A stretch of 41,953 bases of DNA from a virus. The position numbers and the translations under genes were made by a program. The notes beneath the pieces were generated by a model that saw nothing but the letters and a program-made list of their open reading frames with translations, was not told the origin of the DNA and made no database searches. Shown here piece by piece: positions 5,245 to 34,915 of the stretch. Location of the stretch: IMG/VR virus record IMGVR_UViG_3300049057_000157, positions 1 to 41,953 of that record. One strand, given 5' to 3'. The number at the start of each line of letters is the position of its first letter. The first letter of the stretch is position 1.

Positions 5245-6084
5245 CTACGGTGTTGGTCTGACAATCATCCAGTTCACAACCGAATCGTCTTGGGCGTCAT
5301 TGGACGTGATCGTGAACGAGGCACCGTTGCTGATCGTGTATTCCAGCTGCCCCTCTTCGGCTTCAGTGCCGCTCACACGGGTGATGAATATCCGGTCCCC
5401 AGTAGCAACACTGGTATTGTTGACGGTCACGGTGCCACCAGATAGGGTGGCTGTGCCCAGCATGGCGTTACTGCCCTCTTTGATTTGCAGGCCGCCGCCG
5501 GCTGTGTTGTTAGCGATGTTGCCCGTGGCGGTGACTGAACCGGCAACTGTAACTCCATTTTGCGCCGAGATTAAACTAGCAAAGAAGGACTGACCAAACA
5601 CTGCGAAATTGCTTGGCACAAACCCACTCTGGTCGCCATTCCAGCTTGCGCTCATTAAATTCCACGAAGTCCCATCGCAAAAAAGCAGGAACTTGATTGG
5701 ACCGTAGGTCCCCAGAGGCGCACTAAATACCGTGGTGCCACCATTATCAGCATGAAGCTTGAGGGTAAAGGTGCCGGTACAACCGGTTAGTACGCTGCCG
5801 CAAAACAACTTGCCCTTGCTTGTGGCAATGGGCGGCAGTACAACGTCGGGGTTTGCGAGGGCACCGCCAACGGTGAATACGCTCGAGTCATCGTACAAGA
5901 GTTGGTGGTTATCGGCAGTGATCGCAAGCGGAACGCTACCACCAGGCAGGGCACCGTATGCGCTACCGCCGCCACCATTGGCGACGCTGACTGGAACTGG
6001 AACGCCACCAGAGGCATAACCGCTGGCAAGCGAGGGCAGGACGGTCAGAAATGACAAAACGAAGGCTAGAAGGATCCTTACCAT
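5245..6084 (-). CDS. Exported fibre-like protein with signal peptide
   Basis: A 279-residue protein that opens with a Sec signal peptide (RILLAFVLSFLTVLPSLASG, likely cut after SLA). The body is Gly/Thr/Ser-rich and beta-structured. The C-terminus (ATGDRIFITRVSGTEAEEGQ, then FTITSNDAQDDSVVNWMIV) matches a head domain common at the ends of phage tail fibres and spikes. Such a receptor-binding-type domain on a protein with a signal peptide is unexpected, because tail fibres normally assemble in the cytoplasm. It directly follows two related small genes and overlaps the upstream stop by 7 bases. Confidence 0.75.
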   Translation of the reverse strand: MVRILLAFVLSFLTVLPSLASGYASGGVPVPVSVANGGGGSAYGALPGGSVPLAITADNHQLLYDDSSVFTVGGALANPDVVLPPIATSKGKLFCGSVLTGCTGTFTLKLHADNGGTTVFSAPLGTYGPIKFLLFCDGTSWNLMSASWNGDQSGFVPSNFAVFGQSFFASLISAQNGVTVAGSVTATGNIANNTAGGGLQIKEGSNAMLGTATLSGGTVTVNNTSVATGDRIFITRVSGTEAEEGQLEYTISNGASFTITSNDAQDDSVVNWMIVRPTP

Positions 6085-6527
6085 GCCAACACCGAGTACG
6101 TACCTGTTGCGGACGCTCCTAAGATTTTGAACGTGGTGATCGATGGTCCTTCGATAGTGACAGCGCCACCCGGTTCGACCCTGAAGTCTGCACTGGTAGC
6201 GGTACCGTCAGCAAAATCCACATACAGGATTGCTGCAGCGGGATCGGTCTTGACGATCACATGTCGGCTTGCCGCTGCCAGAGTTACGGTCGTACTAGTG
6301 TTTGGAACGCTAGCGGTGGTGTTAGTTATCGATGCCTGGGCAACACTGCCAGGAACAACAAATATGGGGTTTGTGGAGCTGAGAACGGCTCCACCTTGAC
6401 TAATTTGCACAGCACTTGGAGCGGCAGCATTGCTATGCGGTGCGAATGTGCCAGTTCCCGCCGCATAAGAAGGCAATGCAATGGCAAAAGCGGCAAACAG
6501 ACAAAGATATTTTGCAAACTTGTTCAT
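6078..6527 (-). CDS. Exported paralogue of the 6532-6837 protein
   Basis: From the ATG at 6527 the protein has 149 residues and a signal peptide (KYLCLFAAFAIALPSYAAG). The mature part is clearly related to the neighbouring gene product. Both have SI-N, then (I/V)PN-ST, DP-AA, a GP-I--F segment and a C-terminal AW. The open frame extends upstream to 6629, but that extension lies inside the neighbour and reads as shadow sequence. A small beta-domain, perhaps a fibre-tip or decoration unit. One copy keeps and the other lacks the export signal. Confidence 0.7.
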   Translation of the reverse strand: MNKFAKYLCLFAAFAIALPSYAAGTGTFAPHSNAAAPSAVQISQGGAVLSSTNPIFVVPGSVAQASITNTTASVPNTSTTVTLAAASRHVIVKTDPAAAILYVDFADGTATSADFRVEPGGAVTIEGPSITTFKILGASATGTYSVLAW

Positions 6528-6531
6528 TGAT

Positions 6532-6837
6532 TTACCAAGCCATGATGTTGTAAGCGTTTGGGCCGGCAGCTGTGCCGATGACATAGAAGTCCTTAATGGG
6601 GGGACCTGTGTAAGTGAAGCTTGTGCCATTGGGGATCTTGAACATACTCGTGGTCGCAGCAGCGTTGCTCAGGTTGATATGCAAATCTGCAGCTCCTGGA
6701 TCCACACCAATCACAACAGTGTTGCAGGCAATGCCTAATGCAACGGCTGTAGAAGAGTTGGGGATTGTCGCCCGCTGATTAACAATGGACTCCTGGTAAA
6801 CACCAGGATACTTAGATGCATCATCTCTGCCAGCCAT
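6532..6837 (-). CDS. Small beta-rich structural-type protein (no signal peptide)
   Basis: A 101-residue protein beginning MAGRDDASKYPGVYQESIVN. It is homologous over about 80 residues to the downstream gene (shared IPNSSTAV/VPNTSTTV, VDPGAADL/TDPAAAIL, F.+.G...T..GP.I..F, Y..+AW) but lacks the signal peptide. This looks like a tandem duplication in which one copy acquired or lost export. Probably a virion-associated small protein; exact role unknown. Confidence 0.65.
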   Translation of the reverse strand: MAGRDDASKYPGVYQESIVNQRATIPNSSTAVALGIACNTVVIGVDPGAADLHINLSNAAATTSMFKIPNGTSFTYTGPPIKDFYVIGTAAGPNAYNIMAW

Positions 6838-6911
6838 CTACAACCCCTCAATGGACTGCCCCATTGTCTTTGCTCAATCCAAGGGGGGCAATCAGTAGTG
6901 GCAGTGTGGTG

Positions 6912-7394
6912 TTAGGCTCGCGCTGCATGGATGGCAATGCGGATAAGTCTGCGCATCCACCCAAGCCCGAAGACGGAAAATGTCTTGAGGGAGATTTTGA
7001 AAAATGCTTGAGCCACAAGGTATTCAACCAATACTTTGTCGGCTGGCAAATCGTGCACAGCTTTCAATGTGCGCGGGCCAATAACCCCATCGGTCATTGA
7101 AATCTTCACGGCCTTTTGCAGCAACTTCACTGATTTGCTGTTGCCCATGTTTATCGCGCCATCGAAGACAACCAGACCGACCGGATAAGGCAGTTCATCA
7201 CAACGACACACATCCCAATAATTGCGCTTGTATATCTGTCGGGCATCCTCAAGTGTCAAATTCTTGATGTCTAAATCCGGATAGGAGCGCCTGCTAATCC
7301 CAAACTTTGTCTCTCCGCCTGGGTCTTTAGGATTATCGACATAGCCGCCCTCCTCACCCACGACAATTGCAAATGCATTATTGAAATCAGTCAT
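6912..7394 (-). CDS. Endolysin, glycoside hydrolase 108 type
   Basis: From the ATG at 7394 (GGAGG 8 bases upstream) the enzyme has 160 residues. VVGEEGGYVDNPKDPGGETK with FGIS following is the GH108 N-acetylmuramidase signature; the catalytic Glu is in GEEGGY near residue 14-15. The C-terminal half (LLQKAVKISMTDGVIGPRTL) is a peptidoglycan-binding-3 domain. It cleaves peptidoglycan at lysis. There is no signal peptide, so it probably depends on a holin; the candidates lie at 4625-4997. The gene overlaps the end of the preceding gene by 8 bases. Confidence 0.9.
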   Translation of the reverse strand: MTDFNNAFAIVVGEEGGYVDNPKDPGGETKFGISRRSYPDLDIKNLTLEDARQIYKRNYWDVCRCDELPYPVGLVVFDGAINMGNSKSVKLLQKAVKISMTDGVIGPRTLKAVHDLPADKVLVEYLVAQAFFKISLKTFSVFGLGWMRRLIRIAIHAARA

Positions 7395-10323
7395 TACTGA
7401 TGCCTCCATACAATTTGTCAGGGTTCATTTGCTTAGGCGCTTGCTTACGCATATTGCGTAGAGCCTTTTGCTGGAGCTGTTCCATCTTCGCCGTTGAAGA
7501 TGTATCCACCGGCACACGGCGAGTACCCAGCATTGTCTCAAGGACAATTTCTTGCAACGAAGTTGCTTCAAGAGGTTGGCCGCCTGAGTTGAATAACACG
7601 CGCGGCGCAGGATCTCCGCCAATAGTCGTGAACGCTGTAGGCTCCCCACCCGTGGTCACTTTCGCATACAGCCGCTCAGCAAGCCTTGTCGGGGTGGGGA
7701 AAAGTGTGCGGGCCGCAAATTCCAGAAGGTTCGGACGCGGGCGTTGCTCCTTGAACTCTCCACGCATCACATCGGCAGGATCGTATTGTTTGCCGTGATA
7801 ACGTAGCATGTTCGGAGAAGTGAACTCCTTGCCCGTATTCGGATTCACTGCAAAGAAGACAGCGGCAAAGATCGGAAAAATCGGATTCATCTGGCTCAGA
7901 ATCGTGCTGGACTCCTCGCCCTCCAGGGGCTGCCGGAGCTGTTCAATTATTTCTCCTGGAGCGGTGTAAGGGTTCACACTGCCACCACTAACATAATAGG
8001 GAATTCCTTGCGGATTCACCTGATTGCCAATGCGGACGGCTCCCGCCTGCTTCATAGTGTCTGGCAAATCCTGGTCTTGAAAGAGCTCTGATTGCATAGC
8101 GGCAATTCGTTGGCCAATAGCAAGCTTGAACGGATGCTCCATTGGCAACATTGCTGTGTGCTTCGTGATTGCCTCGATCCAGTTCCACCACAGGAAAGTT
8201 GTGCGCAGCAATGCACGCTTCTCAGACTGCAACGCGGAGAAGTCTCCGATTGCCTTCATGATGGATTTGTTCACGTCCTGGACCGCTTCCGGAGAAGCGA
8301 AGACTTTCTGCAAGCGTTCAACCGCTTCCCCGCTAGACAGCATGCCGCGAATCGGGCCGCCTAATTCGGGAAGCTTTTCCGACAACTTCAGTGCATAGTA
8401 ACCAGCTGCCACATAGCGAACTGCCCGATCGTAGATCTCCAGGCGCTTAAAGTTGAAATCAATAGTTTTCTCAATCGCCTTGCCGGCAATGCCTGGCAAC
8501 AATGCATGTCCAGCATCAGCAACAAACTGCTCGCCCAGCAGATTCTCAGGCACAATCGCTTGGACCTTTTTGTCCAGGGCGAGCATGTAAGACATCAATG
8601 ACACGATCGTGTCTCTTGGTCCTCTGAATTGGGTCACTCCTAACATCACAGTAGTCTGAGCAAATTGCCACTCAGGCAGAGTAAAGTTGAAGCCGAGAAC
8701 ATAACGGCGAGCGAAGTTAGCAAAACCAGTCAGGATACGCTCTATTTTGCCCTTTCCAGGGGTGGTTAGGCGCTCAAAGCTCTCAACCATCCAGCCAGGC
8801 AAATGAATCCTGTCTGGAGCGCTCAGGGCTGTTCCTGCGATGGTGCTCAATTCTTCATCGGTGAAAGCCTTCAAGCCGCCACCGATCCGGCCAAGGAATT
8901 CTTTGGGATAAAACTCCACTAACCCCTTAGCGGCAATCTCTGCAGGTGTCATCTTGGCGATGTCCACTTGCGCGTCAAGCATACGCTGCAGCAATACCTT
9001 CGTTGTGTTGTAGAGCTGTAGCAATTGAGCATGGCGAGCCAAGGTCACACCGCGCGAATCGGTAGAAAACTGAGCGCCCCGCTGCAGCTGCGTGCGGGCA
9101 TACTCCATAGATGTCTTTTGTGTGGGCATCTCGCCTGAGATAGCAGCCCGCGCTTTATCCGCTGCCACTCGCAAGGTGTTATCAGGCAATTGGTAAGGAT
9201 GAGCCAAAGTATTTTTCATCTGCGCTTCAGACAAGCGCCCTTGATAGATCGGCTCAACTCCCCGGCGATTGAGGAACCTCTGAGCATCCTTGATCAAAGC
9301 CATCAAGGCTTCTGGATTCTTGGCAATCTCCGCGAGTTCTTCGCTAGTCAAGCCGAAGGCTTTGGCTGCTGAAGCTGCTGCTGACAGCCATCTATCTTTG
9401 AATACTTGCTCCGCTGTGACAGAGCCAAGCTCTTTTAATTTCTGTGTGTCTTGGGCAATGATCGGTCTGAGCGTTTCCATGTAATCTCTGGTAGCTGGAT
9501 GGATGTCCCGCTCAAAGTTGAAGCCCGGTTTGTAGTAGCGCTCAGCTGTTCCCTCCAGGAGCTGCATCAATTCCGCTTTGTCTGCCGCCGGCACAGCTTT
9601 CAATTTGCTATCAAGCAAAGCTCGAGTAGCTTGGTATGCATCTGCTGTGGCCTGAGCAACCTGGTTGCGGATGCCGGATTGCAAAGCCTGCTTGCTCAGA
9701 GGCACAGCCAGTTGCTTCGTGTATTCGTTGGTGCGCAAGAAGTCTGTCGCCTTATCGGCAAACACCTTCGCTCCGTGTCCAAGCTGGGCAGCACCCGGCA
9801 CAGTCTTCAATCCTGCAGCTAACGGCTTGCCTAATTTACTGATTGGTGGAGCCGGAGCCACGTCAAAGACATCTAACGGGTGCTGTACCCAGTGCATGGC
9901 GATGTCTTCAGGATGTCCTGACAATACAGGATTCACGTAATTAGTGACGTAGTGATTGACGATGCCTCCAACAATATTGCTGGCCGTGCCTAGATCTTCT
10001 GGGCGAATAGGCGATTGCCCGTAGAAGGTTTCAAGCGCTCGTGTTTTGGCCAATGAGCCAATGACAGCAAATCCCTGTCCAAGATCCGCTACATCCTTCA
10101 CCAGGTTTACCGGAATATCCCAAATATTGGTGCTCCGTTCGGGATCAATAGGTGGTAGGTATCCACCAACAGGATTATTTGCATCTGCATACAAGCTGTT
10201 GGGATCCACCATAGGACCAGCGGGTGGAGCGCCCGGCAAGCTGGGCAGTTGCGGCTGTCCTGGTTGCTGAACCCCGCCAGCACCAAACGTTTGTCCGGTC
10301 CCTGTGGTGAATGGTCCTGGCAT
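7387..10323 (-). CDS. Large internal virion (ejection) protein candidate
   Basis: A 978-residue protein starting MPGPFTTGTGQTFGAGG. After a Pro/Gly-rich N-terminus it is long, alpha-helical and mixed (LKELGSVTAEQVFKDRWLSA, FNFKRLEIYDRAVRYVAAGY, LLRTTFLWWNWIEAITKHTA). I see no lysozyme or transglycosylase motif. Size, helical content and place between the nozzle/fibre genes and the endolysin fit the large ejection proteins of short-tailed phages that line or extend the ejection channel. That call is inferred from position. Its start overlaps the stop of the previous gene (TAATG). Confidence 0.6.
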   Translation of the reverse strand: MPGPFTTGTGQTFGAGGVQQPGQPQLPSLPGAPPAGPMVDPNSLYADANNPVGGYLPPIDPERSTNIWDIPVNLVKDVADLGQGFAVIGSLAKTRALETFYGQSPIRPEDLGTASNIVGGIVNHYVTNYVNPVLSGHPEDIAMHWVQHPLDVFDVAPAPPISKLGKPLAAGLKTVPGAAQLGHGAKVFADKATDFLRTNEYTKQLAVPLSKQALQSGIRNQVAQATADAYQATRALLDSKLKAVPAADKAELMQLLEGTAERYYKPGFNFERDIHPATRDYMETLRPIIAQDTQKLKELGSVTAEQVFKDRWLSAAASAAKAFGLTSEELAEIAKNPEALMALIKDAQRFLNRRGVEPIYQGRLSEAQMKNTLAHPYQLPDNTLRVAADKARAAISGEMPTQKTSMEYARTQLQRGAQFSTDSRGVTLARHAQLLQLYNTTKVLLQRMLDAQVDIAKMTPAEIAAKGLVEFYPKEFLGRIGGGLKAFTDEELSTIAGTALSAPDRIHLPGWMVESFERLTTPGKGKIERILTGFANFARRYVLGFNFTLPEWQFAQTTVMLGVTQFRGPRDTIVSLMSYMLALDKKVQAIVPENLLGEQFVADAGHALLPGIAGKAIEKTIDFNFKRLEIYDRAVRYVAAGYYALKLSEKLPELGGPIRGMLSSGEAVERLQKVFASPEAVQDVNKSIMKAIGDFSALQSEKRALLRTTFLWWNWIEAITKHTAMLPMEHPFKLAIGQRIAAMQSELFQDQDLPDTMKQAGAVRIGNQVNPQGIPYYVSGGSVNPYTAPGEIIEQLRQPLEGEESSTILSQMNPIFPIFAAVFFAVNPNTGKEFTSPNMLRYHGKQYDPADVMRGEFKEQRPRPNLLEFAARTLFPTPTRLAERLYAKVTTGGEPTAFTTIGGDPAPRVLFNSGGQPLEATSLQEIVLETMLGTRRVPVDTSSTAKMEQLQQKALRNMRKQAPKQMNPDKLYGGISND

Positions 10324-13127
10324 TACTGACCACCACTTAAGCGAGCGAACTCCTCACGGCTCATCTGTCTTCTATGCAAATTCGGATCGTAAGGACCAAA
10401 GTGTGAATCGATCACAGTCACAGGGGGCGCGTTCTTCGCCCAAGCCCGTGGGTCCAACGGGTTGTAGCCCGGCATCTGCTTGGGCGCAGGAGGCGCGTTA
10501 ACAGCTTGCTGCTGCTGCCACTGATACATTGGGTTTTGCTCACGCTGATCCTGTGCGAATTGCGGAAGTAACGGCTGCCTCTGCCCCTTGTTGCTGAACC
10601 CCGCCCAGCCTGCATGGTTGAGCATCTGATTCCAGCGCTTCACTGAACCATCCGCCTTAGAAACAAACTGCATGGCCAGATCGGGATCCGTCAGGGTTGC
10701 GCCCTTCTTCATCCCGCGAGCCACGGGAGTCATAGACATGTCTACTCGAGAAAGATACTTTTGATCCTCTTTCGCCATTGCCTGATTCTTAATTGCATCG
10801 TCCTTGCGCTGGATCTCGTTAAAGACTTGATCCCACTCAGACTTTATCGCCTGACCTCGTGTATCCGGAGGCTCATTCACCGGACCATAAAATTGTTCAT
10901 ACAGCTCTTTATTGAAGCTGTTGGCCCCATTGTTTCTCATCAAAGCATCAGCATCTATGACCTGCGGTCCTTGTTGTGGTGCCCTTATTTCCTGAACCGG
11001 ACCAGGAGAATAATTGGGTTGTTGAGGCATGGGCTGAGCTGGCATCATGCCCGGATATTGCTGCATGCCCGGCTGTCCCATGTAAGGGTTGAAGTTCTGC
11101 GGATATGCGCCCACAGGAACCATGCCACCTGGAGGAGGCGGAGGAACAAGCATGTTGCCTCTCGGTATTGCCGGAGCATACTGCTGCATTTGAGGAGGTG
11201 GCGGTACTTGTTGGTAACCATTCGCGTTGATACCACCCTGCAGAATTTGCTGAGCTTGTTGAGCTGAGCCGGTTTGAATTGATGGTCCGAGATTTCGATA
11301 ATAAGCCTCAATCTGGGCTGCTTGTTGCGGTGTTGCGTTCGGCGGGATAATACCCATCTGTCTGAGCTGTTGCCCGCTTAATGCCGGTTGATTCAATCCC
11401 ATCTCATTGACGGTCGAAGCCTGCTGAATGTCACGGCCTCTCATCTGTTGCTCTTTCTCTGCCTGTGCATATTGAGCGTTGATGCCAGAATTATATGCAT
11501 CATAGCCAGACTTGCGCGCCTCGTTAAACTTCTGATCGACATCAGCAGCAAAGGTAGTTGCATCTCTTTGCGCATCCATTTGAGCGCTCTGAGCTTGTGA
11601 AATCTCCTTGGCGATGTGCGCGTTGACGGTCGCCGCATCGACCTGTGCTTTGGACTGAGCAGCTTGCCGATCGGCAGCAGCCTTCATGATACTGTCAGCC
11701 GCTGTGTAGGCTTCCTGGACATGCTTCAGAATCGCAATACCTTCTTCGGCCGTAGCTTTGCCAAGTTCGGCTGCCGACTTTGCATCTTGAGGGATGTTGA
11801 AATACTTCTCAAGCCACGGGTTCTGAGCCACATCAGCGGCTCTCTCTGGACTGCCTTCCTTCTTCTTCAGGAATTCCTGCAACACCTGGTGCTGTTGGTA
11901 GCTGTTCAGCGATTTGCCCATTTCAGCCTGTTTCAACGCGAAAGACCCCTTCAGGACTTCCTTGAAAATGTCGTTCTCATTGATACCTTGCTGCTTCATC
12001 TGCTCGGCAGCTTCTTTCATTTGCTCGATGGCAATCTCTTTCTGGAGCTGAGCGTTTTGCTTGAATTGCTCAAGCTGCATCTGGGCTTGTCCTTGCTGTT
12101 TGGCAAGCTCCATGTTGTAATACCGCGGGCTTGCTGCCATCGCGGCATTGTTCAAGCCATGACGTAGACGATCCATTGGATGGAACCCGCCGGCAAACTT
12201 CTTCAGCGGATCAAGAAACCCAGGATGGTCCCCAGGGTTGCTGCCTGGTCCGCCCGGCAAAGGTTGTGAGCCATGCGGCTGTTGCTGGTTGCCACCCTGA
12301 GGAGCACCAGCAGGAGCAGGCACCGGTTGTGCTCTGCTTCCGCCAGCATAGCTAGGTGGAGGCATTCCGCGGTCGCGTTCGTAGGATCCAGGACCATGCT
12401 GCTGATCATATTCATACGCCGCATCAAGCGGATCCTTTGGAACAGGCGCGCCACCTTGTTGCGTTCGATTGGCATAATCGCGCATAGCTCTTTCAACCGC
12501 CCCCTCTTCCTTCGGCGGCAATGGCTGTCCATTTCCGTTATAGGGCACAGAGCCATTGGTGCCAGGAGCAATCACGCCATCTACGCCACCATTGCGTCCT
12601 ACTGAATAACCGGGCAGGAAATCGCGAGGTGGTTCAACCGCATACCCCAAGCTTTCTGGACTCGCCATTGGTGCAAAGGGTTGAGGCTGTAAAGGTTGCG
12701 GAGCCTGCGCGATGGGTGGAAGGTTCGGTTGCTGCACAATCTCCATGCCACCAGGAAACCCGGCCAGCGCTCTGAGATCAACAGCCGCCTGCTTGTTTTC
12801 CACGTTGTTGTTGGTGACAGCAGTGTTATTGATGTTGTTGTTTTGGGTGTTGTTGGTTGGATTTGTCACCACAACGGGGGGCGAATATACAGGAGCGGGC
12901 GAGTTGTATGTGATGTTGGTTGGTGAAGGCGCGTACGATGGGGTTGACGGAATGCCTGGATTGTAGACTTGTAATGACGCCCCACCATACAACGGCGCAA
13001 CAGGTGCAGGAGCCGGAGCAGGTGCATACAAGCCTTGCCCGGCCACATAGCCGCCAGTCTGCTGAGGCTTGCCTGGCACGTAAGCCGTGCTAGATACCTT
13101 GCCTGGAATATACGTCTCGCCTGCCAT
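10323..13127 (-). CDS. Pro/Gln-rich internal virion protein candidate
   Basis: A 934-residue protein. The N-terminal ~330 residues and a block around 640-720 are low-complexity Pro/Gln/Gly/Asn (APAPAPAPVAPLYGGASLQV, PPPPQMQQYAPAIPRGN). The middle (about 345-600) is a long coiled coil (QLQKEIAIEQMKEAAEQMKQ). No enzymatic motif is visible. Disordered arms around a coiled coil suggest an internal or ejection protein, or a flexible scaffold. It lies between two other presumed ejection proteins. Confidence 0.6.
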   Translation of the reverse strand: MAGETYIPGKVSSTAYVPGKPQQTGGYVAGQGLYAPAPAPAPVAPLYGGASLQVYNPGIPSTPSYAPSPTNITYNSPAPVYSPPVVVTNPTNNTQNNNINNTAVTNNNVENKQAAVDLRALAGFPGGMEIVQQPNLPPIAQAPQPLQPQPFAPMASPESLGYAVEPPRDFLPGYSVGRNGGVDGVIAPGTNGSVPYNGNGQPLPPKEEGAVERAMRDYANRTQQGGAPVPKDPLDAAYEYDQQHGPGSYERDRGMPPPSYAGGSRAQPVPAPAGAPQGGNQQQPHGSQPLPGGPGSNPGDHPGFLDPLKKFAGGFHPMDRLRHGLNNAAMAASPRYYNMELAKQQGQAQMQLEQFKQNAQLQKEIAIEQMKEAAEQMKQQGINENDIFKEVLKGSFALKQAEMGKSLNSYQQHQVLQEFLKKKEGSPERAADVAQNPWLEKYFNIPQDAKSAAELGKATAEEGIAILKHVQEAYTAADSIMKAAADRQAAQSKAQVDAATVNAHIAKEISQAQSAQMDAQRDATTFAADVDQKFNEARKSGYDAYNSGINAQYAQAEKEQQMRGRDIQQASTVNEMGLNQPALSGQQLRQMGIIPPNATPQQAAQIEAYYRNLGPSIQTGSAQQAQQILQGGINANGYQQVPPPPQMQQYAPAIPRGNMLVPPPPPGGMVPVGAYPQNFNPYMGQPGMQQYPGMMPAQPMPQQPNYSPGPVQEIRAPQQGPQVIDADALMRNNGANSFNKELYEQFYGPVNEPPDTRGQAIKSEWDQVFNEIQRKDDAIKNQAMAKEDQKYLSRVDMSMTPVARGMKKGATLTDPDLAMQFVSKADGSVKRWNQMLNHAGWAGFSNKGQRQPLLPQFAQDQREQNPMYQWQQQQAVNAPPAPKQMPGYNPLDPRAWAKNAPPVTVIDSHFGPYDPNLHRRQMSREEFARLSGGQ

Positions 13128-13130
13128 GTT

Positions 13131-14456: not shown

Positions 14457-14982
14457 CAAAGCGTTTAGTGTTCTGACTGAAGTCCGTATTTGTTGCTTGG
14501 TTTGTCAGCGTGTTCGCTGTGCTGGTGGTCGATCCAAGACTAGCTTGATCCTGCGATGTCCCGACTGGACGCATGGCAAATTGCCAAGCCTGATTGAACG
14601 CATTGAGCGCATTGCCCTGCCCCTGCTGAGCGGCCTGAGCCGCTAAGCCAAGATTCATCTCTTGCCGGCGGGCATCTGACACCGCAGAGCCCGGACCAAA
14701 CTTGGCATTGATCCTGGGGAGTTCATACCGGTCGAAGTTGTAATTCGCCCACTCTGCAACCGCAGGATTGGGCTGATTAAACGCTGGAGGAGTATAACCC
14801 TGCAACATGTTCATTGCGAACTGTCCGGCCATACCCTGAAGGGCTTGTTGTTGCGGAGTGAAGATGTCGCTGCGCAATTGATTCTGATTCTGCATCTGTG
14901 TGCCAGCAGCAGTCTGCTGTTGGTTCGCTAGCGTGGTGCTCTGCTGGCTGCCAGTTGTGGTGCTTGTGTCAAAGATGCTCAT
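14389..14982 (-). CDS. Gln-rich virion-associated protein, upstream part of possible frameshift fusion
   Basis: A 197-residue protein: Thr/Gln-rich N-terminus (STTTGSQQSTTLANQQQTAA), then AEWANYNFDRYELPRINAKF and SAVSDARRQEMNLGLAAQ. The latter resembles a segment found in phage internal proteins. It ends LEVALPFLAGVFPEVFR. Near the end the frame reads GTG TTT CCC GAA; slipping +1 at CCC-G would enter the long downstream frame. No function is known; the place after the fibre genes suggests an ejection or internal protein. Confidence 0.6.
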   Translation of the reverse strand: MSIFDTSTTTGSQQSTTLANQQQTAAGTQMQNQNQLRSDIFTPQQQALQGMAGQFAMNMLQGYTPPAFNQPNPAVAEWANYNFDRYELPRINAKFGPGSAVSDARRQEMNLGLAAQAAQQGQGNALNAFNQAWQFAMRPVGTSQDQASLGSTTSTANTLTNQATNTDFSQNTKRFDAGGLLEVALPFLAGVFPEVFR

Positions 14983-15037
14983 GGTTGAACGGTATCCAAA
15001 TGGTGGATAGGGTTCAATCTGTATTGGTGGACTGCCC

Positions 15038-15481
15038 TTAAGGTAGTGTTATGTTGTTGTCGGTAGCGTGTGCTTGGATAGCGGAAACCTGTCCAGCGGT
15101 AAGGGAAGCTTTGAGCTGAGTCCAGATAGCTAAGGCTAGTTGCTTCTCCCCGCGCATATACCAAAGACCCATCACATTGATCGCCAACCTGGAATTTGCA
15201 GGAATGTTAACGTCTGCCGTGCAATCAACAATGAAGGACTTTGGCGCTGGATCAGGCGTATCAAGCCAGTCGAACGCACTCGCCATGGCTTGCGCATCGT
15301 TGCGCTGTTGCGTCGTTGCAGACGGCTTAAAGTCAATACGGCAAGATGGTCCAGAGCCACTCACCCCATCAATTGGAATCCCCGCTTGTCGCAAGGAGGT
15401 ATCAAATCTTTGTAACGCGGTATCCGCTAAAGCCGTTGGGGCTAACAGCAACGCCGCAGTTAATAGAATTACGCGTTTCAT
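15038..15481 (-). CDS. Small exported protein downstream of the tail fibre
   Basis: A 147-residue protein with a signal peptide (KRVILLTAALLLAPTALAD, cut after ALA). The middle contains ATTQQRNDAQAMASAFDWLD, a phrase typical of small phage tail-fibre-adjacent proteins (QRxxAQAxxxAFDW). Two Cys (PSCRIDF and VDCTADV) could form a disulphide after export. Start overlaps the fibre stop by ATGA, so the pair is translationally coupled. Fibre partner or chaperone is a reasonable guess, but the signal peptide argues for action in the periplasm or outside. Confidence 0.7.
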   Translation of the reverse strand: MKRVILLTAALLLAPTALADTALQRFDTSLRQAGIPIDGVSGSGPSCRIDFKPSATTQQRNDAQAMASAFDWLDTPDPAPKSFIVDCTADVNIPANSRLAINVMGLWYMRGEKQLALAIWTQLKASLTAGQVSAIQAHATDNNITLP

Positions 15482-17232
15482 GGATTTATTGTCCCTGTCA
15501 GATAAGTATTTGGTTGCGCCTCACCGTTGTCACCCTCGAAACCGCCATTGGCCGCACCTTTTTCCAATCCCGAAATGAAGTGATATCCAACCGCTGGAGT
15601 GTACACGTTGCTGTTCGTAGCTGAGATTTGATAACTAGCGCCACCAAGAGTAACAGCCTGCCCAATATCTGGTGTAGTGGTTGAATCCATTGCCAATCCA
15701 CTCCAAATCGTAGTTGCAGCGCCATTGCCGAACATCCCGCTTACAAAGGATGCATTAACAGCGCTCCCTGCGTGGCCGATGATGAAATCAACACGGTTGC
15801 CTGTCCCCGGTGTTGATGTGTTATTACTCGCTCTCCAAGTCCCGGTGGTATATGACCATGTGTTTGTTGCATCAGTCCCATACAGCCGCCTGGACACCCG
15901 GTTGTGCATATTCCACACGAGTCTGCGCGCTGCGCTATCTTCGGTCTGCCCAGAAACACCAGTCGTGCGAAAACTGCCGACATACCGGCGTTCCGTCGCG
16001 CCTGTCTTGAAGCAGCAGATGCCGTTAACTGTTGTAAGTGCGGTAGCCCGGGTGGTGTCATTTGTCCAGGCAACTGCCTCGCCCGTCACTCCGGACGAAT
16101 CGAACAAAAAGACATCGTACATCGTGTTGGTGGTGGCGGGAACGTTGATGCTGATTTCAGAGTATGTCTTTAAAGCAAAGCCCGTAGAGCCGTCGTAAAG
16201 TGAAACTAAATTAGAAGTGTAAGGCGTGTACTTAACAGCGGTCGCCCCAGTGACATCGCTGCTGGTGACCGGAGTATTACTCGTGAGCGATAATCTGCCA
16301 CCCATAATCGCAGACATGTCGATCCATGTTGGAGCCCCGGTGCCACCACTGAGCGGAATTTGTCCAGCAACGCCGGCACTTTGGATAGCCATCCCGGCTG
16401 CACCCGAATAAACTAAGCCACCCTGTGCAGCGGTTAAGTTGGCGCCTGTACCACCCGTGCTCAATGCCATTGGTGTCGCCGGCGTTATGACATCACATTT
16501 CAAATTCTTGTAGCTGCTATCTCCAGCATTGCGAACCGCTAGGGTGTTCGCATCCTCCCGCTTGAGCAACATATCGACAGCAGACGCGCCACCGGCGCCA
16601 AACTTAATACCACCGTCAGAAGTTAGGGCAACCCTCGGATTGGCATCGCCGGTTATCCCTGTGTAGATAGTGTTGTTGCCTGTTGCCATCAACGCAGACA
16701 GCACTCCCGTCAGCGCAACAGTTACTCCCGTAAATGTGCCAGTTGATGTGAGGTTTACTCCGGTAAAGGTTCCAGTCGCTGTGATGTCCCCTACAGCTAA
16801 ATGCCGATCAGCATTGTCTGCCGCATTCCGAATACTCAACGTTGTCGAGTTGGAGCGCTTCAGCATGACATCAAGCGCGGAAGCAGACCCTGCACCAAAC
16901 TTGATAAATCCATCGGAAGTTAGTGCGACTCGCGGTACTGTGTCGCCGGTTGTGCCAGCGGTAAAACAGTTCGCCAGCGCGGCTCTGAGAATCGGATACT
17001 CAAGCGTGGTATCAAGTTTGGTCGGCGCAATCGCTGCACCAGTCTTGATGTTCACATTGGATATCGTTGTGAAGCCGTTGTATAACGTTGAGAAGCGGGT
17101 ATTCTGTGTTGCCGCCGTGATTGGCTGCCCCGCAACCCATGTATAGGGATCTGTGACGACATCCGCCATCGCAGTTTGAGTGGCGCACAAAAACGCCATG
17201 ACCCAAGCGAACGCTAATTTCAACTTATTCAC
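15478..17232 (-). CDS. Tail-fibre-like protein with signal peptide and internal repeat
   Basis: A 584-residue protein starting at a GTG that overlaps the nozzle stop by 8 bases, with GAGG upstream. It opens with a signal peptide (LKLAFAWVMAFLCATQTAMA, cut before DVV). The next segment (TDPYTWVAGQPITAATQN) is typical of phage fibre N-termini. Two copies of a ~35-residue repeat follow: PRVALTSDGFIKFGAGSASA and PRVALTSDGGIKFGAGGASA. A triple-helix-like TGTFTGV region lies between them. The C-terminal third is beta-rich. Position after the nozzle fits the receptor-binding fibre; the leader peptide is the surprise. Confidence 0.8.
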   Translation of the reverse strand: MNKLKLAFAWVMAFLCATQTAMADVVTDPYTWVAGQPITAATQNTRFSTLYNGFTTISNVNIKTGAAIAPTKLDTTLEYPILRAALANCFTAGTTGDTVPRVALTSDGFIKFGAGSASALDVMLKRSNSTTLSIRNAADNADRHLAVGDITATGTFTGVNLTSTGTFTGVTVALTGVLSALMATGNNTIYTGITGDANPRVALTSDGGIKFGAGGASAVDMLLKREDANTLAVRNAGDSSYKNLKCDVITPATPMALSTGGTGANLTAAQGGLVYSGAAGMAIQSAGVAGQIPLSGGTGAPTWIDMSAIMGGRLSLTSNTPVTSSDVTGATAVKYTPYTSNLVSLYDGSTGFALKTYSEISINVPATTNTMYDVFLFDSSGVTGEAVAWTNDTTRATALTTVNGICCFKTGATERRYVGSFRTTGVSGQTEDSAARRLVWNMHNRVSRRLYGTDATNTWSYTTGTWRASNNTSTPGTGNRVDFIIGHAGSAVNASFVSGMFGNGAATTIWSGLAMDSTTTPDIGQAVTLGGASYQISATNSNVYTPAVGYHFISGLEKGAANGGFEGDNGEAQPNTYLTGTINP

Positions 17233-18937
17233 AGCGCCTCATCCCCCTCTCCTGGTACTTCAGTGTCAGCCCGTTCAATTTGAAATAACGCTGAGCTACT
17301 GTTTGTTCAATCTTGATCTGAACATTCTTGCCATACAATGCGCCTGTAAAGCCATTAACGCCAGTGCGCTTCACCGTCAACCGCTTACTGTAATTAGGAT
17401 AATTCACAACAAGCGTATCACCATAAACGCCACCACCGTCATACGTGTCCACGTCATAACGCGCTGGCAACCCCGCCGGCAAGGTATTCGTTTTAGTCAC
17501 CACACAAGACTGTCCTTCGCCATTCTTCACTGTCAAAGTGGCCTGAACGGTTCCTGAGTCCGTGGAATAATCCAGCCACAACCAGCGAAACCGCTTAGTC
17601 TTTCTCGGATCACCCTGGTTTGTATATTGATCTCCAGGGGGTCCCTTAATGTACGGCGTAAGCCAATAAGCATCAATGCGTGTACCGTTATCATCTAAGC
17701 CGACATCGACTTGAGCCAGGTGGACATCTCCATCGCTGTTTTGAGTTGTGACACAAAAAAGCAACTTCTGCTTTAGTGCGTCTTCCCCTTCAATTAAAAT
17801 GCCGGATGGCCAACCTTCCATTGGCCACCATGAGCGCAAGTTGTAGTCGAAGCAATACTGCCTATTGCCCGCAACATCCAAAACATACATAAAAGGCTTA
17901 GTATGCCTGGCTGCCGAAAAGCGGGCATTAAGATCCAAAGCTATTTGATCTGTGACCCAATCAGCCAAATCTTTCCTGATATGTTCGGAAATAATTCGCG
18001 CTGTTGTGCCGTTCGTTTCATAAACAGCTTTGTCCGTGCCCAGAAAAACCACCGTACCATAGCTTCCCTGTTCGCCCACTGGACCCGGAAGAAACGCCAT
18101 AGTCCGTCCGTCCAATACGCCGCCGGCAACACCATTAACAATCCGCTCTTCCCACTCGCCCAAAGCGCCCGTCATGGCATAAATACCCATCTTGGTCTTG
18201 CCAATCAGAGTTGTCTGAACCGGAGTCAATGAGTCGGTAGCGATCGACATGGGCTGAATACAATTGATTCGCCCACCAGCTCCCTTGCCCACATTATGGA
18301 TCGACGCACCCAGCCAAATTGAAGGAAAGTCCGGATCGCTCCAGCGCGCCGCATGAGGCTCTTCCGTCCCCGAAACATAGGTGTCACCACCAACAAGGCT
18401 CCCATTAATCAAAGCCAACACATTGCAAGCGGGCGCAGGTATCCTTCCAACTGCCGCTGAATATCCAATCGCCGCATCGGTGTTCGTGGCCGGATTATAT
18501 TCTCTGATGCCCACCTGATTAACACCATACAGGGTTAATCCGTCCGAATAGTAAAGAATCCCATCACGAGCAACCGCTGCCACTCTACGCCCAGCAGCAT
18601 AAACACCAGAAGCAATGAGTGTCCATGGATCGGTATTGCCGCTATACATGTTGCCATTTTGCCAAATGATCTTGTGGCGATCGTCATTCTCATCATCCAT
18701 ATAGATGGCGCCATCGGCATCAACGGAAGACACCGGAGAAGTAGACTCCTCTTGCCAGCCGTCTCGCTGCAAGAGTTCTCCACCTTTCAGTCCTTTAAAA
18801 TTCCTGCACCGCGGACTTGCGTTTAGAGGCAGATCGGCAGGATCTACCTCGGAAATTTGTCCACGCGAAAAATCGCCAATGTGGACATCGATGAAAGTAT
18901 CATCGCCAATATTCTCAATCGCCGCATTGCCACCCAT
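17225..18937 (-). CDS. Tail nozzle / stabilisation protein (beta-propeller)
   Basis: A 570-residue protein. Near the N-terminus it has DFSRGQISEVDPADLPLNAS and CRNFKGLKGGELLQRDGW. This 'results, ordinary points, gene-coordinates' opening is typical of P22 gp10/SU10-type nozzle proteins. Repeated short beta blades follow (VARDGILYYSDGLTLYGVN, GSYGTVVFLGTDKAVYETN, then RQYCFDYNLRSWWPMEGW). It would form the distal tube below the adaptor and carry the fibres. It sits directly after the adaptor gene, as expected. Confidence 0.75.
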   Translation of the reverse strand: MGGNAAIENIGDDTFIDVHIGDFSRGQISEVDPADLPLNASPRCRNFKGLKGGELLQRDGWQEESTSPVSSVDADGAIYMDDENDDRHKIIWQNGNMYSGNTDPWTLIASGVYAAGRRVAAVARDGILYYSDGLTLYGVNQVGIREYNPATNTDAAIGYSAAVGRIPAPACNVLALINGSLVGGDTYVSGTEEPHAARWSDPDFPSIWLGASIHNVGKGAGGRINCIQPMSIATDSLTPVQTTLIGKTKMGIYAMTGALGEWEERIVNGVAGGVLDGRTMAFLPGPVGEQGSYGTVVFLGTDKAVYETNGTTARIISEHIRKDLADWVTDQIALDLNARFSAARHTKPFMYVLDVAGNRQYCFDYNLRSWWPMEGWPSGILIEGEDALKQKLLFCVTTQNSDGDVHLAQVDVGLDDNGTRIDAYWLTPYIKGPPGDQYTNQGDPRKTKRFRWLWLDYSTDSGTVQATLTVKNGEGQSCVVTKTNTLPAGLPARYDVDTYDGGGVYGDTLVVNYPNYSKRLTVKRTGVNGFTGALYGKNVQIKIEQTVAQRYFKLNGLTLKYQERGMRRCE

Positions 18938-19716
18938 TAGTCCAAAACAATCCTGTGCCCGCCATCAATCGGATAGCCTTCCCATTGACTCTCCTTCCGT
19001 GGACGCATCTTCAAATGTCCAACTTCTCCAGCCTGAGCCATGTACTGGTGAAGCTTCGTGCTCATATCATTGAACACCTCATACCAATACTTCGCCTCAC
19101 CCATGAAACGCTCTTTCTCGCTGGCTTTGGCAATCGCATATGCCACCACGCCATCACGAAAATCCTCAGGTACAAGACACTTGTCCCCCGGATTCCTCAT
19201 CCGCGGATGACTCAACATGCATTCAATAGTAATAGTCCGTCCTGCCGTGTCAGGCGCCGGCAATAATCCCAACACCGTCCGATAGTCCTGTTCATCTTCA
19301 GCATTGATCTTGGTCAGTTCCTGAGCGCTCGTCGTAGCGTTCTGGTTCATCAGATAGCTAACATATGGCTTGATGTAATACTGCCGGACAAGATTCGATG
19401 TCTGCACCTTGCCGGTCTGCACACCTGAAAGATCCTGCAACTTCTCCAATGGGTAAGGCAGATTGCCATCAAAATAAGTAACGCTGAAGATGTCCAGCGG
19501 ACTGATCTTCAGCGGATACTCAGATTGATTTGCAATTGTTACTTCTTGGTATGGGTAGCGCAGTACTCCTGCACCACGGCACATCAAGTTGGCACCCTTG
19601 TTGAGCTGCCGAATTAGAAACCGGTCGCTCCACAGATCCTCTTCGTCTTCTTCGAGAAGCTCACGCGTCTCTTCTAAAAGACCCTGGAGGTCATCCAGCA
19701 TCCCTGCATCGGACAC
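18937..19716 (-). CDS. Head-tail adaptor protein (SU10-adaptor-like)
   Basis: A 259-residue protein from a GTG with AAGGAGGT six bases upstream. A helical N-terminus (LLEETRELLEEDEEDLWSDR, then FLIRQLNKGANLMCRGAGVL) and C-terminal helices (DFRDGVVAYAIAKASEKERF, EAKYWYEVFNDMSTKLHQYM) flank a beta segment. This is the layout of portal-attached adaptor proteins of short-tailed phages such as SU10. It lies between the decoration and nozzle genes. Confidence 0.7.
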   Translation of the reverse strand: MSDAGMLDDLQGLLEETRELLEEDEEDLWSDRFLIRQLNKGANLMCRGAGVLRYPYQEVTIANQSEYPLKISPLDIFSVTYFDGNLPYPLEKLQDLSGVQTGKVQTSNLVRQYYIKPYVSYLMNQNATTSAQELTKINAEDEQDYRTVLGLLPAPDTAGRTITIECMLSHPRMRNPGDKCLVPEDFRDGVVAYAIAKASEKERFMGEAKYWYEVFNDMSTKLHQYMAQAGEVGHLKMRPRKESQWEGYPIDGGHRIVLD

Positions 19717-19736
19717 AAGAAGACCTCCTTAATCAT

Positions 19737-20195
19737 TTAGAGCAGAGCAACGATCTTCGCCAAAGTCCCACCAGAGGAGTTGGCTTCAATCGCTTGTGAT
19801 CTCATCGGCGCCACATCAGTGTTGGCCGGTTTAGCCAATGTGCCACTTGCTCCAGCGGCCAACGGATCGTTAGCGGCAACACCATTAGCAACTAGAGTGG
19901 ATGCCTTGCCGTGGCGAGTAATCCAGCCGTAGTCTCCTGAGGCAATCGCTGTTTCAGCCGTCCCGAAAACGTGATCAGTTACAGCCGCAGTCTTCTTCAC
20001 TTTCAAACAAGTGGTGACAGCAGTGTCAATCTGAACCGCTTCATTTACCAAAATTGCGGCGCCCGCTTGCATCAACACATAAGTGTTGTCTTTGTTTCGT
20101 CTAACCATGCCAGCGAAGAGATTGGGCGGCAACGTTGTATAGGTTGCCGTCAATGCCCCGAAGCTGCCGTTAGTTTCGTGTCCTGCAAAAGCCAT
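19737..20195 (-). CDS. Capsid decoration / head-stabilising protein candidate
   Basis: A 152-residue protein made of short beta strands with many Ala, Thr and Gly: YVLMQAGAAILVNEAVQIDT, SGDYGWITRHGKASTLVANG, APMRSQAIEANSSGGTLAKI. The pattern of small beta-barrel loops and an 'AIEANSSGG' end resembles DUF2190-like head decoration proteins. It directly follows the major capsid gene and has a good ribosome site (AAGGAGA). Confidence 0.65.
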   Translation of the reverse strand: MAFAGHETNGSFGALTATYTTLPPNLFAGMVRRNKDNTYVLMQAGAAILVNEAVQIDTAVTTCLKVKKTAAVTDHVFGTAETAIASGDYGWITRHGKASTLVANGVAANDPLAAGASGTLAKPANTDVAPMRSQAIEANSSGGTLAKIVALL

Positions 20196-20213
20196 TTCAA
20201 TGATCTCCTTAAA

Positions 20214-21254
20214 CTAGGCAGCAGTACAGCCGGTGAGCACGCCCTGCATTCTTGGCGAGGAGCAGGTCATGTTGCCATCCCAAAAGATGTACTTGATTGC
20301 AATGCGCTGTCTGCTCGGCACGCGGAGCGGAGTTTGAACGAAATCCGAAGATTTCGACGGACGCCAGAACAGATACTTCGTGTTCAAGAAGTAGATCTTG
20401 CCTGCATCGTCGATGTTCTGATCCGGTACGCATGGCACACCGTTCAACATGATGAAGCGGAAGCCAGCCTTGTAGACATCAGAGTCGCCAGCGGTAATAC
20501 GCTCGTTAGCTTGGAGCAAGCTCCAGAGCTTCGCAAAGATCGAAGGATGCATCACAATCAGGTCAGGCGCTTCATCACCCACACTGCACAAAGTGAACAT
20601 CTGGTTCATCTTGTTGATGTCGATAACGGTTGAAGCGTTGCTGAAGTTGTAAGCACCGGTCCATCTTGTAACCGCGCCGGCATTCACTGCAACAGATTGG
20701 CCATTCCACCAGGCATTGCCCGTAAATGAGGACTTCGGCCCGGTTGAAGAAGATCGGCTGATGTTGCCGTAACTTCCAGGACTCGGGTTGGCATTGTGCG
20801 TGATGATCGCGGACAAGCCATCTAGCGTCTTAGCACCATGAAGCGAGTTGTTGGATCCATCGCCGTAAATCTCTTGTCCCATGGTGTCCTTCAAGGACAT
20901 CAGGGCGTTTTGAGCGACGGTTTCAGCAAGATCCGCAACTTCTTCGGCGCCCATATTCTTGAGCTTGTCGGTTTCTGCGTAAACAATCGGGCACTGGTAG
21001 TAAGCCCAGTTGTGCTCTGCCTTCGTGACAATTTCCGGCTGTCCGGCAGGCAGAGTTGCGAAGCCGCCCTGCCAGGCGCCCGCCTCCGAGTTTCGTGCAT
21101 ACATGATCGGCTGCTGAATCTTGCTGCCGCTTGCGAACTTCTTACGCTTCAGCAGTCTCATCAACAGCGCGGAAGACGTGAAAAATTGATCAATCACATC
21201 GGGAACGATCATTTCCCGTGTGAGAGTTTCTAGCGTTGTATATGGGACTGCCAT
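20214..21254 (-). CDS. Major capsid protein
   Basis: A 346-residue protein placed between scaffold and decoration genes with a strong ribosome site (AGGAGAGAGG). TTLETLTREMIVPDVIDQFF near the N-terminus and VADLAETVAQNALMSLKDTM resemble the N-arm and spine helix of HK97-fold capsid proteins. The C-terminal half (LIVMHPSIFAKLWSLLQANE, GFRFIMLNGVPCVPDQNI, YIFWDGNMTCSSPRMQGVL) matches capsid P-domain and A-domain style. The HK97-fold call rests on this and on synteny. Confidence 0.85.
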   Translation of the reverse strand: MAVPYTTLETLTREMIVPDVIDQFFTSSALLMRLLKRKKFASGSKIQQPIMYARNSEAGAWQGGFATLPAGQPEIVTKAEHNWAYYQCPIVYAETDKLKNMGAEEVADLAETVAQNALMSLKDTMGQEIYGDGSNNSLHGAKTLDGLSAIITHNANPSPGSYGNISRSSSTGPKSSFTGNAWWNGQSVAVNAGAVTRWTGAYNFSNASTVIDINKMNQMFTLCSVGDEAPDLIVMHPSIFAKLWSLLQANERITAGDSDVYKAGFRFIMLNGVPCVPDQNIDDAGKIYFLNTKYLFWRPSKSSDFVQTPLRVPSRQRIAIKYIFWDGNMTCSSPRMQGVLTGCTAA

Positions 21255-21266
21255 TTATCCTCTCTC

Positions 21267-22136
21267 CTAAGCCAAGCCGTGCTCGCGAATGAATTGCGTG
21301 ATCCGGCCGCCCAATCCGCTGAAGCCCCTTTCGCCTGGCTCACGCTTCGGCTTCGGAGGCTCCTGGAATGGGGCGCTTCCGGTTGGAACGCCCTTTACTT
21401 TTGAAAGTTCTTCTTGTTGTTTAGCGATCTGCTGTTGCCGTGTCTCGAAGTCCAACAACTGTTGTCTAAGCTTCGGAGCTTCCAGCAAATTCATCTGAGT
21501 CTCGAAGACATCTACAAAACTGCCGCGAATCTGCTTGCCATCGGCAAGCGCCTGAAGCGCTGCATCCTTGATAGCCTTACGCCATTCAGGCGAAACTACA
21601 GAGTCCGCCTTCTCGCCAAACTTCTGTCTAAAGGCCGCTTCGGAACGATTAAAGTCTTCCTCGAGAAAACGCTGCTCAACAGAGACAAGCCTTTGATTGG
21701 TAGCGCGGTTGAACTGCGCAAGAATGTCTGATGTGACAATCTGCGGATCTTGTTGTTGTTGGCCGTAGATCCCGCTTTGCACATTCGGTTGATACTCATA
21801 TTGAGGTTGGCGCTGTTGCGGTTGCTGATACCGCATCATTTGAATCTCGGCAGCCAACGCCTGCTGATTAGCAGCCATCTGCTTCAGCATTTCCAACATC
21901 GGATCAGAACTGGCAGCCGGCGGCAATGGCTCTGGCTGCGGAATAGGCTCTGGTTCCGGTTGGGGGTGTGGCGCCGGAGTCGGCTCATCACCTACAGCCG
22001 GCTCCACGTCTTCCTTGGAGGAAGCCTCTTCCGACTTGTTTCCGGTCGGGTAAACCTCATCATATATGCCAGATTGTGGCTCTTCTTCCACAAGCTGCAT
22101 AATTCGTTCTCGATCTAATTTGATCTCTGAAACCAT
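21267..22136 (-). CDS. Scaffolding protein
   Basis: A 289-residue, acidic and Gln/Pro-rich protein directly upstream of the major capsid gene. The N-terminal ~80 residues are disordered (PTPAPHPQPEPEPIPQPEPL); coiled-coil segments follow (LEMLKQMAANQQALAAEIQM, LRQQLLDFETRQQQIAKQQE). It ends with a basic, helical patch (PKREPGERGFSGLGGRITQF), as scaffolds use to bind capsid subunits. Start overlaps the preceding stop (TAATG). Confidence 0.75.
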   Translation of the reverse strand: MVSEIKLDRERIMQLVEEEPQSGIYDEVYPTGNKSEEASSKEDVEPAVGDEPTPAPHPQPEPEPIPQPEPLPPAASSDPMLEMLKQMAANQQALAAEIQMMRYQQPQQRQPQYEYQPNVQSGIYGQQQQDPQIVTSDILAQFNRATNQRLVSVEQRFLEEDFNRSEAAFRQKFGEKADSVVSPEWRKAIKDAALQALADGKQIRGSFVDVFETQMNLLEAPKLRQQLLDFETRQQQIAKQQEELSKVKGVPTGSAPFQEPPKPKREPGERGFSGLGGRITQFIREHGLA

Positions 22137-22585
22137 TACATTCTGACTCCCTGTCCAAGTCCCCCCAGAGCTGAGCCGCCCTGATTGCCCGCCATTAGCT
22201 GCATTTGCATTTGCTGCACACGCCCTTGCTTCATGTCTTCAAGTTGTTTGCAAATCTGCAACGGCTTTGGCGGGAGCTGTTGCAATTGCGCGATCATCTG
22301 CATAACGCCGCTTATCTCTTGCTCTCCGCCCACAACACGCAAAAGGTTTTCCAAATCCATCAACGCTTTCACGGAAGCATTGATACCTTCAGACAAATCT
22401 TGTGCAGTCCGGCGAACAGCAGCACATGCAGTATCGAAGCCATAAACAGTAGGATCGTGCGGTCCTTGCAATCCGGCAGGATTGTTGGCACTGGGTGGTT
22501 GACCCATGGCCAAATCTCGCAGATTCACTTGTGCGCCCATTGTGTTCACGTGGCTTATCCCGCACAGATACGCGCTCTTGCGCAT
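22136..22585 (-). CDS. Gln/Met-rich hypothetical protein upstream of scaffold
   Basis: A 149-residue frame. The best start is uncertain: ATG at 22585 has no clear ribosome site, and the in-frame ATG at 22540 (MGAQVNLRDLAMG) is also weak. The middle is helical (AAVRRTAQDLSEGINASVKA, MQMIAQLQQLPPKPLQICKQ), and the end is Gln/Met/Gly-rich (RVQQMQMQLMAGNQGGSALG). Probably a head-assembly accessory protein. Not recognised. Confidence 0.5.
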   Translation of the reverse strand: MRKSAYLCGISHVNTMGAQVNLRDLAMGQPPSANNPAGLQGPHDPTVYGFDTACAAVRRTAQDLSEGINASVKALMDLENLLRVVGGEQEISGVMQMIAQLQQLPPKPLQICKQLEDMKQGRVQQMQMQLMAGNQGGSALGGLGQGVRM

Positions 22586-22665
22586 TTCGAGCGGATACTA
22601 ACACCGGCTAAAAGTGCTAAACAATGAGTGGTGGCTGTGTGCCACCATGTCGCCACGCAAGTGAA

Positions 22666-23124
22666 TTAAGAGCGGCTACCTATTGCCACTACCTTGATTT
22701 GAATGGTGGCACTGCCTGAAGGATTGGTGAAATAGAGAGTGGGCGGAGTCGCCGCGCCGTTGTTCACAATCGCACAGCCGTTGGTTGTCACCGTGAACTT
22801 ATTAGCGTTTGTAGTGTTAGGTCCCCAAAGGAATCCCGAAGCCGCGCTGCTAACATCTTGCACTGCAAAATATCTGCAGCTGTCCAACTTTGTCGATAAA
22901 TCTACAGTGGTACTCGTGCTGGCCGCCAGCTCAATCAATTCCTCATATTGGGCATTGTCGGTTGTAGTACTTGCCTCATCGAAATCCAGAAGCTTTCTGT
23001 CTCTGCCGACAGTCCCGCGCCCAAGATAAAAGCTCGCATTGACTCGCTCCGCTGTTGGCGCTGTGGCATAAACGCCAAGCCCAACAAAGAACAAAAGCAA
23101 TGTGGCTAAAATTCTATTTCTCAT
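22666..23124 (-). CDS. Exported small protein in the capsid gene cluster
   Basis: A 152-residue protein with a signal peptide (NRILATLLLFFVGLGVYATA) between portal and scaffold genes. The mature part is beta-rich (STTVDLSTKLDSCRYFAVQD, KFTVTTNGCAIVNNGAATPP) and contains two Cys, perhaps a disulphide. It overlaps the portal stop by 4 bases (ATGA), so it is co-translated with the portal. Its Ser/Thr/Gly-rich beta style recalls the fibre-like exported proteins of the same phage. No known head protein carries such a leader. Confidence 0.65.
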   Translation of the reverse strand: MRNRILATLLLFFVGLGVYATAPTAERVNASFYLGRGTVGRDRKLLDFDEASTTTDNAQYEELIELAASTSTTVDLSTKLDSCRYFAVQDVSSAASGFLWGPNTTNANKFTVTTNGCAIVNNGAATPPTLYFTNPSGSATIQIKVVAIGSRS

Positions 23125-30240: not shown

Positions 30241-30248
30241 CTTTCCTC

Positions 30249-33236: not shown

Positions 33237-33358
33237 CTTGTAGCATTGCTCAAGCTATTGAAAACCCGAATTGGTCGTTTTGTGGGCTTTTATTGCTAGT
33301 TGTGTGTACATGGGTACATTAGATGGTATGATGGTGTCATCTTGTTGAGGTGACGGTC

Positions 33359-34880: not shown

Positions 34881-34915
34881 CCGCTACATATCATTGGTTT
34901 GCCCGGAGGTGTCCT

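Follow-up and report, generated by a model that had tools for sequence, protein, structure and literature searches.

Five genes of the late block and one of the early block in the virus record IMGVR_UViG_3300049057_000157, analysed over all of its 41,953 bases (the window), begin with Sec-type leaders, and the leadered set includes both recognisable fibres or spikes of the phage. The leaders are judged from the sequence to be a real and unusual feature and not an artefact of prediction, and it is highly probable that they work and that the proteins are exported. The same leadered-fibre architecture recurs in a small number of unrelated phages, among them the cultured Myxococcus phages Mx8 and Mx9, a recurrence which suggests that some tailed phages may send host-binding proteins across the inner membrane before use. 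The late block would thus encode a Sec-exported receptor-binding module, with fibres that fold in the periplasm and dock on virions at lysis, a reading that is favoured here but held at somewhat less than even confidence.

The folding and assembly of tail fibres are assumed to be cytoplasmic. The known Sec-exported phage proteins, among them Lom and Bor of lambda, spanins, SAR endolysins and Llp of T5, use the host Sec system like the leadered fibres described here; they are envelope or lysis proteins and not receptor-binding fibres. In a literature search of partial coverage, no description of Sec leaders on tailed-phage fibres came up. Phage receptor-binding proteins are a known kind of protein, which here carry export signals, and their function is something that we infer. 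Should some phage fibres use Sec, the consequence would be either a second, periplasmic route to virion completion or a soluble host-binding set that is released, and either outcome would matter for adsorption, host range, exclusion and depolymerase production. The trait is directly testable, since it is found in Mx8 and Mx9, cultured phages whose host is a laboratory bacterium.

Sec leaders and their genome setting

Leaders were sought with a home-made signal-peptide scorer that evaluates a basic n-region, an uncharged h-region and small residues at -3 and -1. The leaders of OmpA, MalE, LamB and Bla were recognised as controls and that of PhoA was missed. With a cut-off of a score of at least 9.9 and a net charge of at least 1, exactly six of the 65 plausible genes of the window passed: 15038 (score 11.56), 22666 (11.16), 6078 (10.82), 40229 (10.74), 15478 (10.57) and 5245 (9.99). 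These are the same five late genes and one early gene for which the first-pass annotation had claimed Sec leaders, and the signal-peptide prediction that it proposed as a check, made here with the home-made scorer on the 65 genes, bears the claim out. The cut-off was passed by 16 of 19,500 shuffled N-termini (0.08%) and by no member of the two other control sets, 8,428 internal segments and 155 shadow ORFs; the chance expectation for 65 genes is approximately 0.05 leaders versus the six observed. All six window leaders have a site of the Sec/signal-peptidase-I type, with cleavage predicted at SLA|SG or SG|YAS in 5245, SYA|AGTG in 6078, ALA|DTAL in 15038, AMA|DVVT in 15478, VYA|TAPT in 22666 and AFA|DDGL in 40229. 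The leader length of approximately 17-23 residues would fit a Gram-negative host. Lipoproteins were ruled out by inspection, the lipobox being absent.

The late block lies on the minus strand and runs in the order terminase (26397), portal (23121), capsid (20214), tail hub slot (17225), likely internal virion proteins (14389 to 7387) and endolysin (6912). The starts of 22666, 15478, 15038 and 5245 overlap the stop of the preceding gene by 4-8 nt, and the corrected start of 6078 is 4 nt past the stop of the preceding gene 6532, indicating that the five late leadered genes belong to the chain of virion genes. Host morons or misplaced host genes were ruled out, since phage domains are present in these genes, which also overlap genes for virion proteins.

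The terminase, portal and capsid matched PHROG families. The major capsid protein (20214..21254, minus strand) matched PHROG 9953 with an E value of 1.8e-48 and the Mx9 capsid with 31% identity (E 8e-35), which places the phage near Mx8 and Mx9; its nearest relatives are the capsids of Mx9, Bradyrhizobium phage ppBjS10J-1, BUCT555 and Mx8, at 28-31% identity. The order of late genes, compared with Mx8, Mx9 and BUCT555, is that of Mx8. The 570-aa protein directly upstream of spike 15478 (17225..18937, minus strand) gave no match with its own sequence and is assigned to the tail hub or head-closure slot by position, which equals that of the corresponding gene in Mx8, Pam5 and contig L088. In the comparison of tail hub and internal virion proteins with the Mx8-like podophages, 17225, 18937, 7387 and 10323 gave no clear match. 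Megablast of window bases 1-25000 against phages gave no match, searches of IMG/VR with the single capsid, 15038, 15478 and terminase proteins gave no close relatives, and tblastn in phages with 22666, 15038, 6078 and 17225 gave no match. The window phage is accordingly placed, by its gene order and capsid, as an isolated member of the Mx8-like podophages, which are short-tailed. No tRNA genes were found in the 41,953 bases. A gene for a GroES-like co-chaperonin (29914-30309; NCBIfam E 7.5e-31) lies upstream of the terminase gene and has the orientation of the late genes. Inspection by eye also revealed a serine recombinase-like and a tyrosine recombinase-like gene near each other (33350-34381 and 34847-35788), with a membrane protein gene on the opposite strand between the two.

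The leadered proteins of the window

The 584-aa tail spike or receptor-binding protein 15478 (15478..17232, minus strand) has its leader at 17164-17232. Residues 305-558 are 35% identical over 254 aa to gp18, annotated as 'tail spike', of Pseudanabaena phage Pam5 (E 2e-25), identifying a C-terminal region of receptor-binding type at 15559..16320 (minus strand). This stretch also resembles small stand-alone proteins of Rhizobium phages; of the three such phages examined, two encode them beside genes annotated as acetylesterases. A motif search for relatives of the N-terminus of 15478 found none. The 279-aa fibre or spike protein 5245 (5245..6084, minus strand; leader at about 6019-6084) ends in a K1-lyase_C domain (5260..5469, minus strand; Pfam E 7.5e-20, 71.6 bits against a gathering score of 27), a module located at the ends of tailspikes; the C-terminus of 5245 also has matches among the tailspike and minor tail proteins of Streptomyces phages. 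Both 15478 and 5245 are clear phage receptor-binding proteins by these domain matches. No leaderless protein with a recognisable spike or fibre domain was found in the window genome.

The ORF called at 6078-6629 extends too far at its 5' end; the correct first codon of the leader is the ATG at 6527, directly after the stop of 6532, giving a protein of 149 aa (6078..6527, minus strand) with the leader at 6462-6527. It is a paralogue of the adjacent leaderless 101-aa small beta-sandwich protein 6532 (6532..6837, minus strand), with 39% identity and a phmmer E value of 8e-16. The Pfam family Enas matched 6532 just under the cut-off (E 5e-4, 20.5 bits against a gathering score of 22). The AF2 model of 6078 is a beta-sandwich over residues 66-149 (pLDDT about 65-83) that matched Ena appendage proteins at VIA Z 7.9-9.4 among other cupin and jelly-roll folds, and the fold is also near that of many phage proteins of 90-130 aa. 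The likeness to Ena proteins is thus a distant one of a common fold, and these are pili of Gram-positive endospores, unlike 6078 and 6532.

The 152-aa leadered protein 22666 (22666..23124, minus strand; leader at about 23065-23124) follows the portal gene, and its mature part is predicted to be all-beta with two cysteines. A low-confidence AF2 model (pLDDT 52) matched several BFVD phage proteins also matched by the 6078 model; hhalign of 22666 with 6078 and 6532 was negative, so that the link consists of common fold matches only. The first-pass annotation described several of the leadered proteins as fibre-like. That description holds for 15478 and 5245; it is plausible for 6078 and 22666, which model as similar small beta-sandwiches, and is not established for the 147-aa protein 15038 (15038..15481, minus strand; leader at 15425-15481). 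The last contains two cysteines, overlaps the end of spike gene 15478, and yielded no family or relative in family, phage and IMG/VR searches or in a motif search.

The early leadered protein 40229 (106 aa; 40229..40549, plus strand) is unrelated to the fibres and also contains two cysteines; no family or relatives were found. It could be a candidate exclusion protein. The PADLOC models, a library made for defence systems and not for phage exclusion proteins, gave no match.

Leadered fibres in other phages

The p64 protein of the Myxococcus phage Mx8 is a canonical tail fibre in which a 28-residue leader replaces the first residues, and the leader of Mx9_p14 is identical. Both proteins begin ...TPASA|TRNSVGTYTLPGGNPVVSGTTISSTWANSTL, and at this cleavage point 111 of 114 members of the fibre family start with MPRN, MSRN or similar. 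BUCT555 and many IMG/VR phages have leaderless fibres with the same N-terminal domain as p64. Further leadered genes follow the fibre (within p64-p67 in Mx8 and p14-p15 in Mx9), including a GDSL esterase; Mx9_p15 is a leadered beta-sandwich/GDSL protein, and the GDSL/SGNH hydrolase is leadered in Mx8 p67, Mx9_p15 and contig L260. Mx8 and Mx9 therefore resemble the window in their related capsid, late-gene order and a Sec-leadered fibre succeeded by more leadered proteins, but they differ in the fibre family, in the presence of a GDSL esterase, none of which was found in the window, and in a leadered cassette that stands apart from the structural block. The leaders go unmentioned in the annotation of these phages and in the papers found. 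An unannotated leadered ORF homologous to Mx9_p15 is present on the plus strand in the p64-p66 interval of Mx8 (L005:33848-34159), where a frame change interrupts it in comparison with Mx9; p65, annotated on the other strand, is probably spurious.

In the Pseudanabaena podophage Pam5, the spike has a C-terminal domain homologous to that of 15478 and no leader, in contrast to 15478, whereas the next two genes, encoding the small proteins gp19 and gp20, are leadered.

The first-pass annotation had proposed a survey of homologues for conservation of the leaders. Among 114 distinct N-termini of the Mx8 p64 (MPRN) family about three are leadered, namely Mx8, L221/L260 and the atypical L235. In the K1-lyase_C family, which shares with 5245 a domain above the cut-off, a script flagged two of 75 members, and a third that was cut in the first locus proved leadered on the full contig, giving about 3/75. 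The background in the same setting was 4 flagged among 523 long viral ORFs. Most members of the two families thus have no leader (approximately 3-4% do); the best homologue of 5245 is nevertheless leadered. The excess of leaders in fibre families is modest in number, but the individual cases are clear.

In contig L260 the gene for an internal virion protein is followed by a leadered fibre gene overlapping its stop, a leadered protein of 133 aa and a leadered 810-aa GDSL esterase protein, the third leader scoring only 8.9. Comparison of the 133-aa protein with 6078 and 6532 by hhalign was negative. In contig L378/G001 a capsid-like gene (by eye) is followed by genes for a leadered K1-lyase_C spike, a second leadered spike and a leadered protein of 159 aa. 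The leadered spike is the best 5245 homologue beyond the K1-lyase_C domain, with 48% identity over residues 89-279, most of the identity in the local alignment falling in the last 92 residues. L340 contains a leaderless protein that matches more closely, but over the C-terminus only. The leaderless fibre of L014 comes after a leadered beta protein.

Possible fates of the exported proteins

The first-pass annotation offered three functions for an exported fibre-like set: a secreted adhesin or decoy system, display on the host surface, or virion parts held in the membrane by the leader during assembly. The set is real and recurs in other phages, and the three functions are unequally supported. 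In the favoured sequence of events, the five late leadered proteins would be exported through Sec during late infection and then cut. They would fold in the periplasm as trimers, some with disulfides, and the mature fibres would dock on the virion tail when lysis mixes particles and periplasm. The small beta-sandwich proteins would travel along as accessory binding or decoration proteins.

Docking is considered the most likely fate of the mature fibres because the cut nearly restores an ordinary fibre N-terminus and the anchor domain is kept in the relatives. Over the first 80 residues from the cleavage point, leadered and leaderless fibres are 50-59% identical (median) and leaderless pairs among themselves 54%, absolute values that are inflated by the gathering of the set through N-terminal similarity, although both kinds were compared alike; the last 120 residues are about 15% identical. 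The leadered fibres thus keep the ordinary fibre N-terminal domain, which is read as continued docking on the tail. The 17 leadered proteins contain 1.56 cysteines per 100 aa versus 0.34 in 71 leaderless fibres, a comparison that mixes protein types and a difference that is modest within the window; the higher content would fit oxidative periplasmic folding. The exported module is supported by the leader statistics, the fibre identity of 5245 and 15478 and the finding of no leaderless protein with a recognisable spike or fibre domain in the genome, and the leadered fibre of Mx8 and Mx9, the L260 and L378/G001 cassettes and the cysteine content were also counted for it. Several considerations speak against docking. 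The cytoplasm is where tailed virions are assembled, and they would meet exported fibres only at lysis, and the conserved N-terminal domain might serve folding instead. Mx8 p54 also scores as a fibre-like virion protein, so that p64 need not be the virion fibre and was dropped as the sole fibre of Mx8. Finally, the leaderless and leadered paralogues 6532 and 6078 suit a separate exported role.

Such a separate role is the next possibility, less probable than docking. The leadered fibres, the beta-sandwich proteins and the GDSL esterase of the relatives would act as free proteins, either within the envelope or beyond the dying cell. By masking or altering the host's surface receptor they would keep progeny from being trapped on debris, or they would exclude superinfecting phage. 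Periplasmic proteins would be released outside by lysis, and the adjoining 6078 and 6532, the leadered hydrolases of Mx8, Mx9 and L260, the leadered beta protein ahead of a leaderless fibre in L014 and the leaderless spike of Pam5 with its two leadered neighbours are all consistent with free proteins. However, the ordinary N-terminal domain is fully kept in leadered fibres, the window yielded no leaderless counterpart of 15478 or 5245, and the PADLOC defence families gave no match. Docking is favoured over free receptor masking because the N-terminal anchor domain is as well preserved in leadered fibres as in leaderless ones. The secreted adhesin or decoy of the first-pass annotation has the 6078/6532 pair in its favour, while the kept domain favours its other proposal, virion parts. 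Docking may also be one instance of a wider two-compartment assembly in some tailed phages, in which particles made in the cytoplasm and fibres made in the periplasm via Sec are joined at lysis; that fibres of different families acquired this trait on several occasions, and that it can extend to the entire recognisable receptor-binding module of a phage, is proposed only tentatively.

It is unlikely that the leader stays uncut as an N-terminal anchor, whether it is used while particles assemble on the inner membrane or lies buried within the virion. The MPRN-family fibre of L235 (L235:2324-3421), in which a membrane segment and then a linker of approximately 35 residues precede the fibre domain, is possibly an anchored version, but small -3/-1 residues directly follow the hydrophobic stretch in the six window leaders and in those of Mx8, Mx9, L260 and the L378 spikes. 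Of the earlier proposal, the virion part is favoured by the kept domain, and the signal-peptidase-I type sites speak against the permanent anchor.

Less likely still is incidental export of translated leaders or the use of active leaderless forms from internal starts: the ATG at codon 22 of 15478 would yield almost exactly the mature protein, but no Shine-Dalgarno-like stretch precedes it and no equivalent methionine is near the cleavage sites of 5245, 15038 and 22666.

Lipoprotein-like ORFs of approximately 450 aa were observed downstream of the capsid gene in two alphaproteobacterial contigs (L145:3974-6490 and L155:12232-13644), two of them in tandem in L145.
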